The position numbers and the translations under genes are program-made. A DNA stretch of 64,000 bases from assembly GCA_003153375.1 (NCBI GenBank), contig PLYM01000219.1, positions 80,871 to 144,870 of the forward strand. The letters run 5' to 3'. Positions within the stretch are counted from its first letter, which is position 1. Every line of letters starts with the position of its first letter. Origin of the DNA: Planctomycetaceae bacterium. GTDB lineage: Bacteria > Planctomycetota > Planctomycetia > Pirellulales > PALSA-1355. Under the pieces are notes generated by a model. The model ran no database searches and had not been told where the DNA came from. It worked only from the letters and a program-made list of their open reading frames with translations. Below are positions 6,886 through 11,520 of this stretch, piece by piece.

Positions 6886-7512
6886 CTACTGCGAAATGCT
6901 CGAGCTAACACTAAGCTGGAATCGCAACCAGCTTGTTTCAAGCAGCTTGCGGAGTTGACTGATTCTTGCTGAGCTTAGTCCGTATTGCTGGGCCGCGTTT
7001 CCCGTCGTCTCGCCCATCGCCAGGAATTTGGCAATTTGGCGGTTTCTAGGGGAAAGAGAAGCCAGCCACGCTGCCACGTCGATGCGCGCAATCGCCATCT
7101 CCGCTGGAGTTGCCCGCCGATCGACGAGCAGTGCTTCCTGCCACGCGCCTTTGGTTTCGTCAAACCGATCCAGCCGTTCCACGACGATGCCCGAGGGCTG
7201 AAAACGACGCTCACTCAGGACATCGCGCAAGCGGCGTTTTGCGCCAACTTGGCGACCACTTATCACCTGACGAATCGCAAAATTCGCCAATGGCGTGGCG
7301 TAAGCGACATGGGTCTTGTCGTCGCGAACTAACGCCGCGAATGCGCAAAAGGAATTGGCGATCACCTCCTGGATCAGTTCTGCCTTCCGTTCCGGACGCG
7401 CGCGGCGAAAGGCCCGACACGCCCGTTTGCGGATTTTCGGCAGCATTTCAAGGAATTGCTCGTTTGGTCGAGCGCTTACGTCCTGACGTGATGGCTTGGC
7501 ACTTGTGATCAT
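6886..7512 (-). CDS. Sigma-70-like HTH protein (planctomycete accessory family)
   Basis: 208-residue protein that looks like a divergent extracytoplasmic-function sigma factor. Its C-terminus has a sigma-4-like HTH (SPRNRQIAKFLAMGETTGNA followed by SARISQLRKLLETSW). The N-terminal half (LPKIRKRACRAFRRARPERK, EVIANSFCAFAALV) is compatible with a sigma-2-like helical region but lacks a clear promoter-melting signature. The segment around residues 105-145 (ERLDRFDETKGAWQEALLVDR) occurs, as I recall, in many planctomycete paralogues. The start at 7512 is supported by a strong Shine-Dalgarno AAGGAGGT 7 bp upstream; an ATG 54 bp further upstream lies in a hairpin. No anti-sigma gene is adjacent, so its control is unclear. 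Confidence 0.72.
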   Translation of the reverse strand: MITSAKPSRQDVSARPNEQFLEMLPKIRKRACRAFRRARPERKAELIQEVIANSFCAFAALVRDDKTHVAYATPLANFAIRQVISGRQVGAKRRLRDVLSERRFQPSGIVVERLDRFDETKGAWQEALLVDRRATPAEMAIARIDVAAWLASLSPRNRQIAKFLAMGETTGNAAQQYGLSSARISQLRKLLETSWLRFQLSVSSSISQ

Positions 7513-7519
7513 AACTCGG

Positions 7520-7527
7520 ACCTCCTT
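7520..7527 (-). promoter_or_regulatory. Strong Shine-Dalgarno of the sigma-like gene
   Basis: Minus-strand AAGGAGGT lies 7 bp before the ATG at 7512. It is an almost perfect anti-SD match, unusual in this window, where most genes have weak sites. It decides the start of the sigma-like gene. Confidence 0.75.
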
Positions 7528-7533
7528 AAGGAA

Positions 7534-7592
7534 GACCGCCCCGAAGGGCGGTCGTGCATAAAACACAACCGCCCGGGCACGCTGCCTGGGCG
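7534..7592. repeat. Paired-hairpin (REP-like) module, copy 1
   Basis: Two adjacent inverted repeats. Stem 1 is GACCGCCC-CGAA-GGGCGGTC (7534-7553, 8 bp perfect with a tetraloop). Stem 2 is CGCCCGGGCA-CGC-TGCCTGGGCG (7570-7592, 10 bp with one wobble). The spacer is A-rich (cataaaacacaa). It lies in the 5' leader of the sigma-like gene. A similarly organised pair occurs at 11114-11158, and both are followed within about 250 bp by the string tgagaactgccc. Confidence 0.65.
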
Positions 7593-7925
7593 ATACAGAT
7601 GCGGCTCAAGCTCTGGCGTGAGCACGATGAAGGAGCCCTCTTCGCAGCCGAAAGCTGCGTGTTGAGAACTGCCCATCGGCCTGCACATTCGTCTAAACGG
7701 CTAGCCGGACCGCCAACAGATGTGCCCGAAATCGGGCTTGAATTAAGCTACGCACTGCGAGATTCGCTGCCGCAGTTTTGAGGGCCATCCGGCTGCCAAA
7801 GGCGTGCTTCGCGGTTGGCGGCGCGGCCAGGAGTTTGGGTTGCATTCATAACCGTCTAAAACTGGCAATGCGAAAGAACTCGCATCGGAGCGCTCAAGCA
7901 ACTTTCAGGCAGCATGGAGTCGCCG

Positions 7926-8497
7926 TTGACCTACGCCTTGTGGCGCTATTTCTTAACAAGAAGTTCGCGCCCATCCGTAACCACAACGACATCAACTGGG
8001 TGAGGCGTGTGCTGGACGTCGGTTGTCGGCCCGGGACCAACAGTCGCTTTTTCAAGCAAGCGACTACGTCGACATCGATATCAATCCCGCCTCTTTTGAC
8101 CGCGCGGCGGAAGAGTCACCCACATACATCGAGGCGGACGTTTGCGCGTATACGCCACCGGCTGACCAGCTTTACGATTTCATGCACTCAACAGCCTGCG
8201 GCACCACCTCGAAGACGCCAGCGTGGATCGCATTCTGCACGTCATTGGCCGGGTATTGGTCAAACGACGCCTACGGGCAGATCATCGACCGGATCTTGCC
8301 TGACAAGCCGTCAATCGCGCGGCATCGGACGCTCAACAACCGGGGGACTATCCGCGCCCCTCGGGACAAGTGAAAGGAAAAGTTCGGGCGGTCGTTCGAC
8401 ACGGTGGTCATGGAAGCGTTTCCTGTCGGCATGGCCGGGCTGTGGCAGGCGCTCTACTTCAACGGCCAGCCCAAACGTTCAACGGCCAGCCCAAACG
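7926..8497 (+). pseudogene. Decayed class I SAM-dependent methyltransferase
   Basis: Methyltransferase homology can be followed only by changing frame several times. In order: a TTG start with TYALWRYF; LNKKFAPIRNHNDINWVRR and VLDVGCRPGTNSRFF (motif I, with R replacing the usual G in GCGPG); SDYVDIDINP, then YIEADVCAYTPPADQLYDF; LRHHLEDASVDRILHVIGRV; DRILPDKPSIARH; and finally FGRSFDTVVMEAFPVGMAG to LWQALYFNGQ. At least four frameshifts separate these blocks. The 3' end carries a 20-bp tandem duplication at 8458-8497 that also breaks the frame. It lies upstream of YfhO-like and GT2 genes, suggesting it once belonged to that glycan or lipid cluster. Confidence 0.8.
8458..8497. repeat. Perfect 20-bp tandem duplication
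   Basis: The unit ttcaacggccagcccaaacg is present twice in tandem (8458-8477 and 8478-8497). It sits at the 3' end of the decayed methyltransferase. Because 20 is not a multiple of three, it shifts the reading frame. Confidence 0.95.
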
Positions 8498-8910
8498 GCA
8501 GGTCGAACGTCTTCGGACGGCGTGTACCGCGTCGCCGGCCGAGCCCGTTTTTTCCGCGGCTACTTCTTCAGGCGCTCGCCACGGCGTGCGCCCGCGGATT
8601 CCGGTTATCCGGCTTGGTTCGGCCCCGGCTGATGCCGCGACCCGGGTATGGTATACTCGGAATTTGTCGCTGTTTGGGCGGGATCCTTCCTGGCTGCCGT
8701 CGGTGCGACGCGCAGAGTCGCTTCCGGCCATCATGGCCTGCGGCTTCGCGATGCAGGCCTATTTCCCCCGTGATGCGCCGCAAGCGGCATCGCGTGGGCA
8801 CATGGCCCGCATGCCTGATTTTTTCCAGGCTCACGATCGGCGCGCCGGCTTCGCCGCCGGGGAACTACCCGAGGCGACCGCCATCACATCCAGTCTGAGG
8901 TTCGCGGAGC
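8498..8910. other. Intergenic stretch, no gene recognised
   Basis: 413 bp between the methyltransferase relic and the YfhO-like gene. Open frames here have no family resemblance. A TATACT string near 8650 could be a -10 element for the downstream gene, but no matching -35 is convincing. Confidence 0.4.
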
Positions 8911-11091
8911 ATGACGAGCAAGTCGCTGGCCGTTTTGATAGCTGTTGCGTCGGCCACGGTTTGGCTCGTGATGGCCGTGCCGCTGTTCACCGGCGAGGTA
9001 TATAGCATCTCGGACTTGTGGCGATTCTATCTGCCGCTACGGGCCCACTACGCATCGTCCTTGGCGCAGGGCGAGTGGCCCGCCTGGTTCAGCGGGCTCT
9101 ATGGCGGCTACAACGTACACGGCGCCGGGCAGTTTGGTATGTGCCATCCCTCGCAGTTTCTGCTCTACCGTTTCCTGCCCTTGAACGTGGCGCTCGACCT
9201 GGAGATTCTGCTCTCCTATCCGTTCATGTTTGCTGGCATGTACTTGTTCTTGCAGCGGTGGGAGCTGCGCCGCGACTGCGCCTTGTTCGGGGCCATGCTG
9301 TTTACGTTTTCGACGTTCAACATCATGCGGCTGATTCATCCCAACGCGCTGCAAATCGTGGGGCACTTTCCCTGGATCTTGTACTGCACCGACATCGTCG
9401 TGCGCGGCACCGAGCCCCGCGCAATCACCTGGGCCGCGGTGGGCCTGGCCTTGCTCAATACCTCGGAATTGCTGCTGGGCTACCCGCAGTACTACTGGTT
9501 CTCCGCGCTCTTGTTTGCCGCCTATGTGGCGCTGCTGCTGTGCATGCGGCTCTTGACCGTTCGTCGCCTGGCGATGTTGACGGCCGCGGTGGGGCTGGGC
9601 ATCGCGGGAGGAGCCGTGCAATTGCTGCCGACGATGGACGCTTTGGCCATTTCGGTTCGCCAGCTCTCTCCTAGCTGGCCCGAGGATATGGCCTTTGCTG
9701 GCTCGATCGATCCGCACTATCTGTTACAAGCGTTCTCGCCCTATTCGATGAACGTCTCGCACAAGCAACGGGTCTACATGGGCGCGGTCCCCTTGCTGCT
9801 GGTCGTCTGGGCCATCTTTCGTTGGAAGCAATTGCCGCTGGGTAAGCCGCTGGTGCTGGGCTGCCTGGTCATGGCGTTCTTCATGATTTGGCTGCAACTG
9901 GGCGATTTTGGCGGCCTTTATCAATTGCAAACGCACCTGCCATTTATCGCTCACTTCCGCTATCCCTCGCGGTATGTGCACTTGATGAGCGTCGGCTTAT
10001 CGATCTGCGGGGCCTTTGCGCTGGCCGACATGCTTTCGCTGCGCGAGCGCGGCTCGACAATCGGCCGTGGCCCGCTGCTGGCCGTCGCGGGCGTCGTCGT
10101 GCTCAGTGTTCTGGTCACCGCGCTCGTCTTTCGCCAAGGCACCGAACAGACCGCCGCGGCTCCGGGACACGTGATCGCCGGCACCCTGCTCGTCGCGACG
10201 GCAGCCGTGGTTATTTGGGGCACCGCGCGCGGCGCGAGCTGGGGCCTGCCGAGTCTGGTGCTGCTGGCCGCTGCCGATCCGGCCTACTATGCGATCTCGC
10301 ATTCCATTTGGGGTCAAACCAGCAATATCGAACAGCGCCTGGCCGGCGTTTCGGTGCCGCCGCAAAAATCGTCCGATCGTCTGCTCGGTGGCAATATTCA
10401 GGACATGAACAGCTTTACCCTGCTCGGCTGGCGCCGCCTCGATGGCTTCGAGGGATTGCCGCCGTTCCGCCGGCTCGACTATCGCAAGCGCAATGCGCGA
10501 CGCGTGGCCCAGGTCGGCTGGGTTTCGAACATCTCGGACGAAGTACACGGCTTCTTTGGTGACTACGCGTTTTTCGATACCAGCGACATGTCAGGGCTCA
10601 AGCCTTCATCGAGCAGCGAGTGGTTCGTGCTCGACGATCCGCTGCCGCGGGCACGGTGTGTTTCCAAGATCGTGGTGACTGACGAACCGAGCAAGGTGAT
10701 CGATGAGCTGGACGTGGTCACGACTGCGACAGTCGAAAGCCCGCTGGAACTCGAAGCGGGCGAACCTGGCGAGGCCAAAATCACGGTCGATCGCCAGGGC
10801 CAGATCGACGTTCACGTCCGCAGTCCAACCCAGCAGTTGCTCGTGGTTTCCGAGGCGCACGACCCCGGCTGGCGGATGCAGGTCGATGGGAAAACCGCGG
10901 TGTCGGCCCTGCGGGTCAACGGCGACTTCCTGGGCTGCGTCGTCGAACCGGGCGAGCACGACGTTGCTTTTCGGTTCGATCCCCCCAGTTTTCGGCGAGG
11001 ATTGATTGCATCACTTTGCAGCATGGCCTTGCTAGCCGGGTGGGCCCTCACGCCGCTGGTTTGTCGCAAGCGAACGCCGACAGATGCTTGA
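8911..11091 (+). CDS. YfhO-type polytopic membrane protein
   Basis: 726-residue integral membrane protein resembling the bacterial YfhO / GT-C fold family. The early luminal loop carries acidic and aromatic residues (YSISDLWRFYLPLRAHY) in the place where GT-C enzymes hold their acidic motif. About a dozen hydrophobic segments follow up to residue 470, then a soluble C-terminal part (about 500-690), and a last membrane segment ending in a basic tail (CRKRTPTDA). In Gram-positives YfhO glycosylates lipoteichoic acid; here the acceptor is unknown. A GT2 polyprenyl-phosphate glycosyltransferase follows 430 bp later and could supply the lipid-linked sugar donor. Confidence 0.75.
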   Translation: MTSKSLAVLIAVASATVWLVMAVPLFTGEVYSISDLWRFYLPLRAHYASSLAQGEWPAWFSGLYGGYNVHGAGQFGMCHPSQFLLYRFLPLNVALDLEILLSYPFMFAGMYLFLQRWELRRDCALFGAMLFTFSTFNIMRLIHPNALQIVGHFPWILYCTDIVVRGTEPRAITWAAVGLALLNTSELLLGYPQYYWFSALLFAAYVALLLCMRLLTVRRLAMLTAAVGLGIAGGAVQLLPTMDALAISVRQLSPSWPEDMAFAGSIDPHYLLQAFSPYSMNVSHKQRVYMGAVPLLLVVWAIFRWKQLPLGKPLVLGCLVMAFFMIWLQLGDFGGLYQLQTHLPFIAHFRYPSRYVHLMSVGLSICGAFALADMLSLRERGSTIGRGPLLAVAGVVVLSVLVTALVFRQGTEQTAAAPGHVIAGTLLVATAAVVIWGTARGASWGLPSLVLLAAADPAYYAISHSIWGQTSNIEQRLAGVSVPPQKSSDRLLGGNIQDMNSFTLLGWRRLDGFEGLPPFRRLDYRKRNARRVAQVGWVSNISDEVHGFFGDYAFFDTSDMSGLKPSSSSEWFVLDDPLPRARCVSKIVVTDEPSKVIDELDVVTTATVESPLELEAGEPGEAKITVDRQGQIDVHVRSPTQQLLVVSEAHDPGWRMQVDGKTAVSALRVNGDFLGCVVEPGEHDVAFRFDPPSFRRGLIASLCSMALLAGWALTPLVCRKRTPTDA

Positions 11092-11520
11092 GGACAATTC
11101 GGTAATTCACAGCCACGCCGTAGGCGTGAAACAACTCAGCCTAGGGCAACGCCCTGGGAAAGCGGGGATAAGGAACCATTCGAAGCCCTATTAGCGGCGA
11201 AAGGAAAGCCCAAGGAGTCGCGACACTTTCGGGGGGTTGGGCTTGTTCGCCGCACGACTGCAGGGCCGTGCCCAGAGGCAACATGTGTCACGCCAACGTA
11301 ATCGTCGAAGACAATGGACTTTACATGGAAGGCCGTGCTTCAACGCCCGGATGTCCACTGCCCACTGAGAACTGCCCGATAAGCTGAAAATAGAGCCACT
11401 TGAAATCTCGGCCGCCGTGCGAGCTAATCAAATCGCAGGCACCCACGACGCCCCCGCGGGCGAAGTCCTGTTCAAACTGATTCCCCTGATTGTCGAGATG
11501 AACCGCGAAAGACCTGAACT
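11092..11520. other. Intergenic stretch with hairpins, no gene recognised
   Basis: 429 bp between the YfhO-like and GT2 genes. It holds the second paired-hairpin module (11114-11158) and, further on, the string tgagaactgccc. No coding frame is convincing. Confidence 0.5.
11114..11158. repeat. Paired-hairpin (REP-like) module, copy 2
   Basis: Stem 1 is CACGCC-GTA-GGCGTG (11114-11128). Stem 2 is CCTAGGGC-AAC-GCCCTGGG (11140-11158) with one G-U type pair. The spacer is A-rich (aaacaactcag). The layout and spacer resemble copy 1 at 7534-7592. Confidence 0.65.

Follow-up and report, generated by a model that had tools for sequence, protein, structure and literature searches.

Leaders with mutually exclusive helices, the last of which lies over the ribosome-binding site, are familiar from attenuators and translational riboswitches. 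A different kind of paired structure is found in REPtrons and TIRtrons, in which a tyrosine transposase gene stands between palindromic repeats that have further copies in the genome; known cases include an acidobacterial group, with transposases flanked by inverted repeats, and double-palindromic repeats (PMC3733652). Transposases of TnpA-Y1 subclass 1.2, mostly from Cyanobacteria and Bacteroidetes, are described as generally lacking terminal structures (PMC6006769), and Rhodopirellula-1 has been proposed as a candidate cis-regulatory motif of Planctomycetes (PMC2864571). Here we consider two hairpin pairs, module 1 (7534-7592) and module 2 (11114-11158), in a 64,000-nt stretch of contig PLYM01000219.1 of a Planctomycetaceae bacterium (hereafter the window), from a genome of 6.7 Mb in 291 contigs (G000). 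Both pairs, first proposed in a sequence-only reading of the window, are present in the places it gave. They are two unrelated things and, with a probability that we put at roughly 0.65, module 1 is part of a leader RNA that toggles translation of the gene behind it and module 2 an element resembling repetitive extragenic palindromes (REP). The features are listed in Table 1.

Module 1 directly precedes the ribosome-binding site of a minus-strand frame running from 7512 to 6886, which encodes the sigma-like protein P0002. The suggestion that it forms the leader of this gene was right, and an influence on the gene's expression is probable from the comparisons given below. The region 7520-7600 is unusually stable on both strands (z -5.1 on the plus and -4.6 on the minus strand, with 0/200 shuffles equally stable on either; all folds were computed on isolated strands at 37 C), and the one G-T pair of the plus-strand hairpin at 7570-7592 corresponds to an A-C mismatch on the transcribed strand. 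The leader is about 85 nt long. Our alignment A2 holds 36 leaders from 12 genomes, L030 and L069 having been added by hand; excluded were the contig-end copies L036 and L041, duplicate rows, L077 (G043, no leader seen) and the fragmentary sigma matches L043, L084, L089, L100 and L106. The sense consensus reads CGCCCnGGC in segment 1, GCCGGGGCGGUUGUGUUU in segment 2, ACACGACCGCCCC in segment 3, GGGGCGGUCUC in segment 4 and GGAGRUCG, the ribosome-binding site, in segment 5, followed by the start codon.

The aligned leaders show a chain of five segments in which helices 1:2, 2:3, 3:4 and 4:5 are conserved by compensatory change; neighbouring helices are mutually exclusive because each pair has one segment in common. 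In helix 2:3, 94.8% of cells are paired and double-change cells number 13, where shuffles give 4.0; position 46-63 alone takes the pair types GC, CG, UA and GU. The corresponding values are 95.4% and 7 against 1.9 for helix 3:4, and 83.7% and 4 against 1.4 for helix 4:5, whose local hairpin reaches p <= 0.05 in 24 leaders; with one row per genome (12 rows) the combined p is 4e-8, L074 giving p 0.56. Helix 1:2 was registered by hand, the alignment being off in that part. Its inner pairs occur as CG, GC, UA, AU and GU, and the helix stands out from shuffled upstream sequence with a combined p of 1.5e-7.

An initial search with module 1 gave 12 loci, 10 of which hold most of the sigma-like protein downstream of the leader; the other two end with the contig, one after the first 24 residues and one (L025) inside the leader. 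Among 57 genomes, leader and gene occur together in 12, the gene alone in G043 and the leader alone in G018. The covariance model R1, built from 36 rows including the window copy, encodes helices 1:2 and 3:4 only (E-values of covariance models are rough here, from a shortened calibration). Of 297 genomes searched in the class, 32 gave a match at E <= 1e-4, and 25 of these were new; up to 13 candidates were scored per genome, so that copy counts are lower bounds. Two of the new genomes returned no locus, and the others supplied one held-out leader each (n = 23). A sigma-like frame lies downstream in 16 of these, and six of the other seven precede members of a family of 73-81 amino acids. The held-out leader L243:1501-1589 is followed by a frame of 77 amino acids that is neither sigma-like nor a member of the small family.

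In the held-out set, helices 1:2 and 3:4 together reach 92.9% pairing and 21 double-change cells against 5.1, in an alignment fitted to both helices, and helix 2:3, which is outside the model, is 92.2% paired with 8 against 2.5. The 4:5 hairpin has p <= 0.05 in 12/23 leaders (combined p 3e-13). In four of the six small-frame loci (L250, L254, L255, L256) this hairpin takes in the start codon; in the remaining two, L249 and L253, its p is not significant. Such a swap of partner, from ribosome-binding site to start codon, with the outcome unchanged, is the strongest sign of translational control.

We consider it probable, from these patterns of pairing, that the leader is a translational toggle. 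With helices 1:2 and 3:4 formed, the ribosome-binding site would be more open and the gene translated; with 2:3 and 4:5 formed, the ribosome-binding site, or the start codon, would be covered. The signal would act on helix 1:2 and could be a ligand, a protein, the ribosome or the pace of transcription. When forced, helix 2:3 is lower in energy than 3:4 in 33/36 leaders (mean 6.4 kcal/mol); the covered state is usually computed to be the more stable, so whatever stabilises 1:2 would turn the gene on. Several observations weigh against a toggle. Individually, helix 1:2 reaches p <= 0.05 in only 9/36 leaders and is unconvincing in L083, L076 and L091, the 4:5 hairpin of the window copy itself has p 0.06, and the shuffle controls treat related leader copies as independent. 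The 2:3 and 3:4 states of the window copy are equal in energy. In both computed states the ribosome-binding site is mostly paired. Compared over 35 leaders, it is more accessible in the 3:4 state in 20, less so in 5 and equally accessible in 10, which include the window copy, so that the toggle's prediction holds only partly.

The same set of helices, 1:2, 2:3 and 3:4, also matches the classical layout of an attenuator, in which 3:4 would be an intrinsic terminator and 2:3 the antiterminator, and 3:4 is indeed short and GC-rich, with a tract of mostly pyrimidines after it (on average 6.9 in 8 nt over the 36 leaders). Transcription attenuation nevertheless seems unlikely. Only 3/36 leaders and 1/23 held-out ones have at least six T among the 8 nt downstream of 3:4, too few for a canonical terminator, and the pairing partner of the tract is the ribosome-binding site in most copies and the start codon in four of the six small-frame loci. 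The motif GGGCGGT, present three times in alternating orientation and highly conserved in sequence, could be taken for three half-sites of a double-stranded DNA operator to which the sigma-like protein or some other regulator would bind; this is very improbable, as covariation extends outside the half-sites (for example to the inner pairs of 1:2 and to 46-63 of 2:3) and an operator gives no role to the helix at the ribosome-binding site.

The leader differs from known attenuators and riboswitches in its chain of five segments and in having no Rfam match. In Rfam 15 the sole entry was ftsZ-DE (RF02985) at E 0.25, which we rejected as the identity of module 1 (23.4 bits, 72.2 needed). A tiny leader peptide was likewise dropped: a very short frame, from ATG to a stop a few codons on, can be read by eye in many leaders of the own genome and is missing from the more distant own copies. 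Judged by its published description only, the Rhodopirellula-1 motif of 2010 could be the same leader (PMC2864571).

The protein behind the leader is called sigma-like because its family score is below threshold and its structural matches are weak. Of 26 P0002 homologues, 25 match TIGR02937 (sigma70-ECF) at E <= 0.01, and sigma chains make up most of the 50 Foldseek matches listed for the predicted structure (pLDDT 77, pTM 0.44). Against a sigma assignment, P0002 itself scores 30.8 bits, short of the cut-off of 42.9; none of its Foldseek sigma matches has E <= 0.001, with full-length TM-scores of about 0.3; and the profile search returned FixJ, a KorA domain and WhiG, all weakly (E 0.005-0.09). 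The gene gives 19 matches in its own genome, fragments counted, and occurs in 13 of the 57 genomes searched, the own one included; it was not found in the single genome of the same genus among them. A location of the gene on phages or plasmids was dropped: a search of 50,697 phage and 72,556 plasmid records with an L086 homologue gave no match, and P0002 found none among viral contigs. Three copies in G008 are 96-98% identical over 3.4-3.6 kb, which indicates recent duplication. On one chromosome of G008, the copies of the sigma-like unit at L095, L096, L097 and L099 are 94-98% identical over 2-3.6 kb, and L095 carries about 2.7 kb of inserted sequence relative to L096.

In Planctomycetes the leader heads the sigma-like gene, the family of 73-81 amino acids and, in one genome, a TOPRIM-like gene. 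That genome is G020, where the leader precedes three consecutive frames, TOPRIM-like, sigma-like and small; the first was named by eye, has a weak PADLOC match to GajA (E 5e-4) and matches no Pfam family above its cut-off. Of other leaders, one (G034:C249) lies at a contig end, two (G046:C355, G018:C43) precede no long frame that we recognised, and at G008:1311248 (L140) the sigma-like frame is reduced to its N-terminal end. Downstream of L140 (G008:C1:1311248) a reverse transcriptase of the group II intron type can be read by eye. A protein that looks ubiquitin-like by eye is encoded downstream at the sigma-led loci G026 and L252 and at the small-frame-led loci L249, L254 and L255; it has no PADLOC match and, for the G026 copy, no Pfam match. 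In G026, with leader loci L101 and L105, one copy is adjoined by a ThiF protein (Pfam E 2.5e-23) and by a JAB-like protein slightly below its Pfam cut-off. Six loci (L034, L035, L036, L072, L239, L250) have a conserved uncharacterised protein downstream in common, and next after it in L250 and L239 comes a Cas4-like PD-(D/E)XK protein. With ubiquitin-like, JAB-like, ThiF and nuclease-like genes at leader loci, a single RNA signal might govern such a cluster in its entirety.

Module 2 begins 22 bp past the stop of the frame 8911-11091. Its region, 11100-11170, folds with z -3.2 on the plus strand (1/200 shuffles equally stable) and z -1.4 on the minus strand (17/200), and both drawn stems are absent from the minimum-energy fold of the region alone; support for them comes from relatives that show them. 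On the minus strand the module matches Acido-Lenti-1 (RF01687) with 32.3 bits and E 1.1e-4 over positions 1-46 of 46. Like that family it has two stems and a spacer over the full model, and both stems are present in the homologues, where both vary with many pair types and carry compensatory changes (the two C137 rows are not included in the count for stem 2).

A BLAST search of the own genome with module 2 found, at E < 0.01, itself and two copies, both on contig C137. They lie in opposite orientation at 223-264 and 842-884 and flank a gene for a Y1 transposase of 150 amino acids (P0001; L002:342-791; Y1_Tnp 1.1e-20), with a third copy further out recognised by eye (L002 95-142). Their kinship with module 2 rests on BLAST and alignment rather than on the Rfam model. 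An association with a REP-associated tyrosine transposase (RAYT), which the sequence-only reading had proposed to look for, was thereby found: on either side of a RAYT-like Y1 gene stand inverted palindromic repeats of which the genome has further copies, which is the RAYT layout.

The same arrangement recurs in other genomes. Relatives of P0001 were collected on 18 contigs of Planctomycetes, Verrucomicrobia, Bacteroidetes and related groups; RF01687 is found at E <= 1 in eight of these loci, each time no more than about 100 bp from the gene, and five of the loci that the Rfam model does not match (L048, L051, L052, L055, L056) have inverted repeats on both sides of the gene. Among 29 further genomes, with one locus each, RF01687 occurs at E <= 0.05 in 17, always within 160 bp of the gene and in eight of them on both sides. 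The copies are placed in inverted fashion, outer stem distal and inner stem proximal to the gene, in 22/25 nearest matches of the 29-locus set (the exceptions are left of L195, left of L178 and right of L175) and in 10/10 of the 18-locus set. Matches at or above the gathering score lie beside the transposase gene in L058, L060, L175, L178, L179, L181, L190, L192, L195, L196 and L199; those elsewhere score below it. At 16 loci of other Y1 genes in eight genomes bearing Acido-Lenti-1 there was no RF01687 match (0/16; Fisher 6e-5); these were drawn from 30, leaving out 11 from G144 as well as L209, L217 and L224. Across 149 planctomycete genomes, Acido-Lenti-1 is present in 30/31 with the enzyme class against 16/118 without it (Fisher 1e-18, with the kinship of the genomes ignored).

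Several genomes hold inverted pairs of Acido-Lenti-1 about 110-160 bp apart, and tandem copies in addition. Up to 38 candidates were scored per genome, and copy counts are therefore lower bounds. At least tens of copies per genome were seen in G200, G166, G170, G112 and others, and in G200:C839 the copies stand in tandem with a spacing of about 66 bp. GNAG, seen by eye, is frequent in the loop region of stem 1 and not at the 5' foot, where RAYT repeats have GT[AG]G.

Module 2 is best read as a dispersed copy of a REP-like element of transposase subclass 1.2, with putative mobility: the enzyme would recognise the folded single strand and then copy or move the element. Some findings speak against this. 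The 32.3 bits of module 2 fall below the Rfam gathering score of 37, and at that score there is no RF01687 match in the window; the Rfam model calls none of the three C137 copies at E <= 1, and no match was seen in 12/29 and 10/18 of the transposase loci. RF01687 also occurs in 16 genomes without this enzyme class. The transposase, for its part, scores 44.8 bits with NCBIfam transpos_IS200 and 19.3 bits with REP_Tyr_transpos, below the cut-offs of 55 and 80. The own genome has only few Acido-Lenti-1-like copies, and its elements may be relics.

Assignment of the enzyme to subclass 1.2 follows from its motifs. P0001 and its relatives, of about 150 amino acids, share HUH, WQ and Y---Q--HH with the published subclass, which is characterised by these motifs in about 148 amino acids (PMC6006769). 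Residues H55, H57, W95, Q96, Q119, H122 and H123 are invariant in 10 aligned homologues, and the middle HUH residue varies. Tyr115 is present in nine of the ten; the C137 copy has Cys in place of this expected catalytic residue, and the enzyme is therefore probably inactive. Class 3 of the same survey, reported from Planctomycetes and Acidobacteria, was considered and rejected: it is described with Y----Q and a CnGA foot, and the Y---Q--HH motif found here fits subclass 1.2 better (PMC6006769). Unlike subclass 1.2 as described there, the enzyme here is flanked by paired hairpins and occurs also in Planctomycetes and Verrucomicrobia (PMC6006769). A second Y1 gene of the own genome, on C185, is 41% identical to the C137 one, and no repeat resembling module 2 was seen beside it by eye.

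Rfam types Acido-Lenti-1 as a small RNA, whereas we read it as REP-like DNA beside a transposase gene. It was proposed as an RNA in 2010 (PMC2864571), and its stems show compensatory changes, which a folded DNA strand would show too. That it is a true small-RNA gene which merely tends to lie near Y1 transposase genes is quite improbable given inverted copies at both gene ends (22/25 and 10/10 nearest matches), restriction to one enzyme class (0/16 other Y1 loci) and many copies per genome (up to the maximum of 38 scored), inverted pairs and tandem copies included. The REP-like element agrees with REPtrons and TIRtrons in having palindromes around a tyrosine transposase gene; the REPtron paper has no mention of Rfam, and its acidobacterial repeats enter our comparison by description only (PMC3733652). 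Acido-Lenti-1 copies have also been noted downstream of two Tannerella proteases, with function described as little known and regulation suggested (PMC13298647, 2026).

By sequence comparison, modules 1 and 2 are two unrelated families. Neither retrieves the other by BLAST in the genome; module 1 retrieves 16 places at E < 0.01, its own among them, and the C137 copies found with module 2 are not in this set. Model R1 gives no match to 11114-11158, and the Acido-Lenti-1 model none to 7534-7592. The sequence-only reading had taken both as copies of one spreading palindromic element bracketing an accessory region. Module 2 does behave as such an element. Module 1 does not: as a cis-regulatory leader it goes with the gene that it precedes, and we saw no RAYT with it. 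A lack of additional copies with compensatory changes would have told against that reading; such copies are numerous for both modules, as two separate families. The sequence reported near both, tgagaactgccc, is exact at 7663 and 11366, the first (7663-7674, plus strand) within the upstream extension of the leader, and is unremarkable: 567 different 12-mers recur on the plus strand of the window, random pairs of 300-nt window pieces share at least 12 bases in 1.6% of trials, and in the fetched loci tgagaactgccc occurs only in those overlapping the window. Its presence in both places looks like coincidence. A single family can thus be set aside with near certainty, since the common outline of stem, A-rich spacer and stem and the shared 12-mer, itself unremarkable, stand against separate relatives for each module and no cross-retrieval.

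Table 1. Coordinates of the leader, its gene, module 2 and associated sequences in the window
Feature	Position	Strand	Details
Sigma-70-like gene P0002, 208 amino acids	6886-7512	-	ATG at 7512; TIGR02937 30.8 bits
Whole leader, including start codon	7501-7593	-	model R1, 78 bits; row used in building R1
Segment 5	7518-7527	-	ribosome-binding site AAGGAGGTCC, covered in helix 4:5
Segment 4	7534-7542	-	3' side of 3:4; end and following bases pair with segment 5
Segment 3	7546-7556	-	3' side of 2:3, 5' side of 3:4
Segment 2	7561-7578	-	3' side of 1:2, 5' side of 2:3
Segment 1	7584-7593	-	5' side of helix 1:2
Module 1, hairpin a	7534-7553		GACCGCCC/GGGCGGTC, loop 4 nt
Module 1, hairpin b	7570-7592		CGCCCGGGCA-CGC-TGCCTGGGCG, 10 bp, 3-nt loop
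Upstream extension, further hairpins	7594-7730	-	alignable among own-genome copies
Module 2, stem 1 (outer)	11114-11128	+	CACGCC-GTA-GGCGTG, loop GTA
Module 2, spacer	11129-11139	+	AAACAACTCAG
Module 2, stem 2 (inner)	11140-11158	+	CCTAGGGC-AAC-GCCCTGGG, loop AAC
Second tgagaactgccc	11366-11377	+	judged coincidental, outside both elements

Two further features of the window were seen by eye. Pieces of a methyltransferase-like protein seem to lie in different frames at 7780-8640, as in a decayed gene, and about 19 bases, ttcaacggccagcccaaac, form a head-to-tail repeat at 8463-8500.

Among the matches listed from the open PMC literature, none joins Acido-Lenti-1 to a transposase or describes the leader, and Acido-Lenti-1 as a REP-like element paired with subclass 1.2 is apparently new, as far as those matches go. 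Taking both modules together, we tentatively propose that the leader represents a novel class of regulatory RNA, a five-segment 'domino' toggle: segment 1 would decide, via the intervening segments, on access to the ribosome-binding site or start codon. Equally tentatively, we propose that transposase subclass 1.2 has Acido-Lenti-1 as its DNA substrate. The alternative helices of the leader are visible in the sequence, so that mutants which break and restore them can be designed directly. The leader is a candidate regulatory RNA without a match in Rfam 15, placed before a sigma-like family and sometimes beside ubiquitin-like genes. If the reading of module 2 is true, the orphan HUH subclass 1.2 gains a likely substrate, and annotations of Acido-Lenti-1 as non-coding RNA ('ncRNA') may need to be re-read as mobile DNA.

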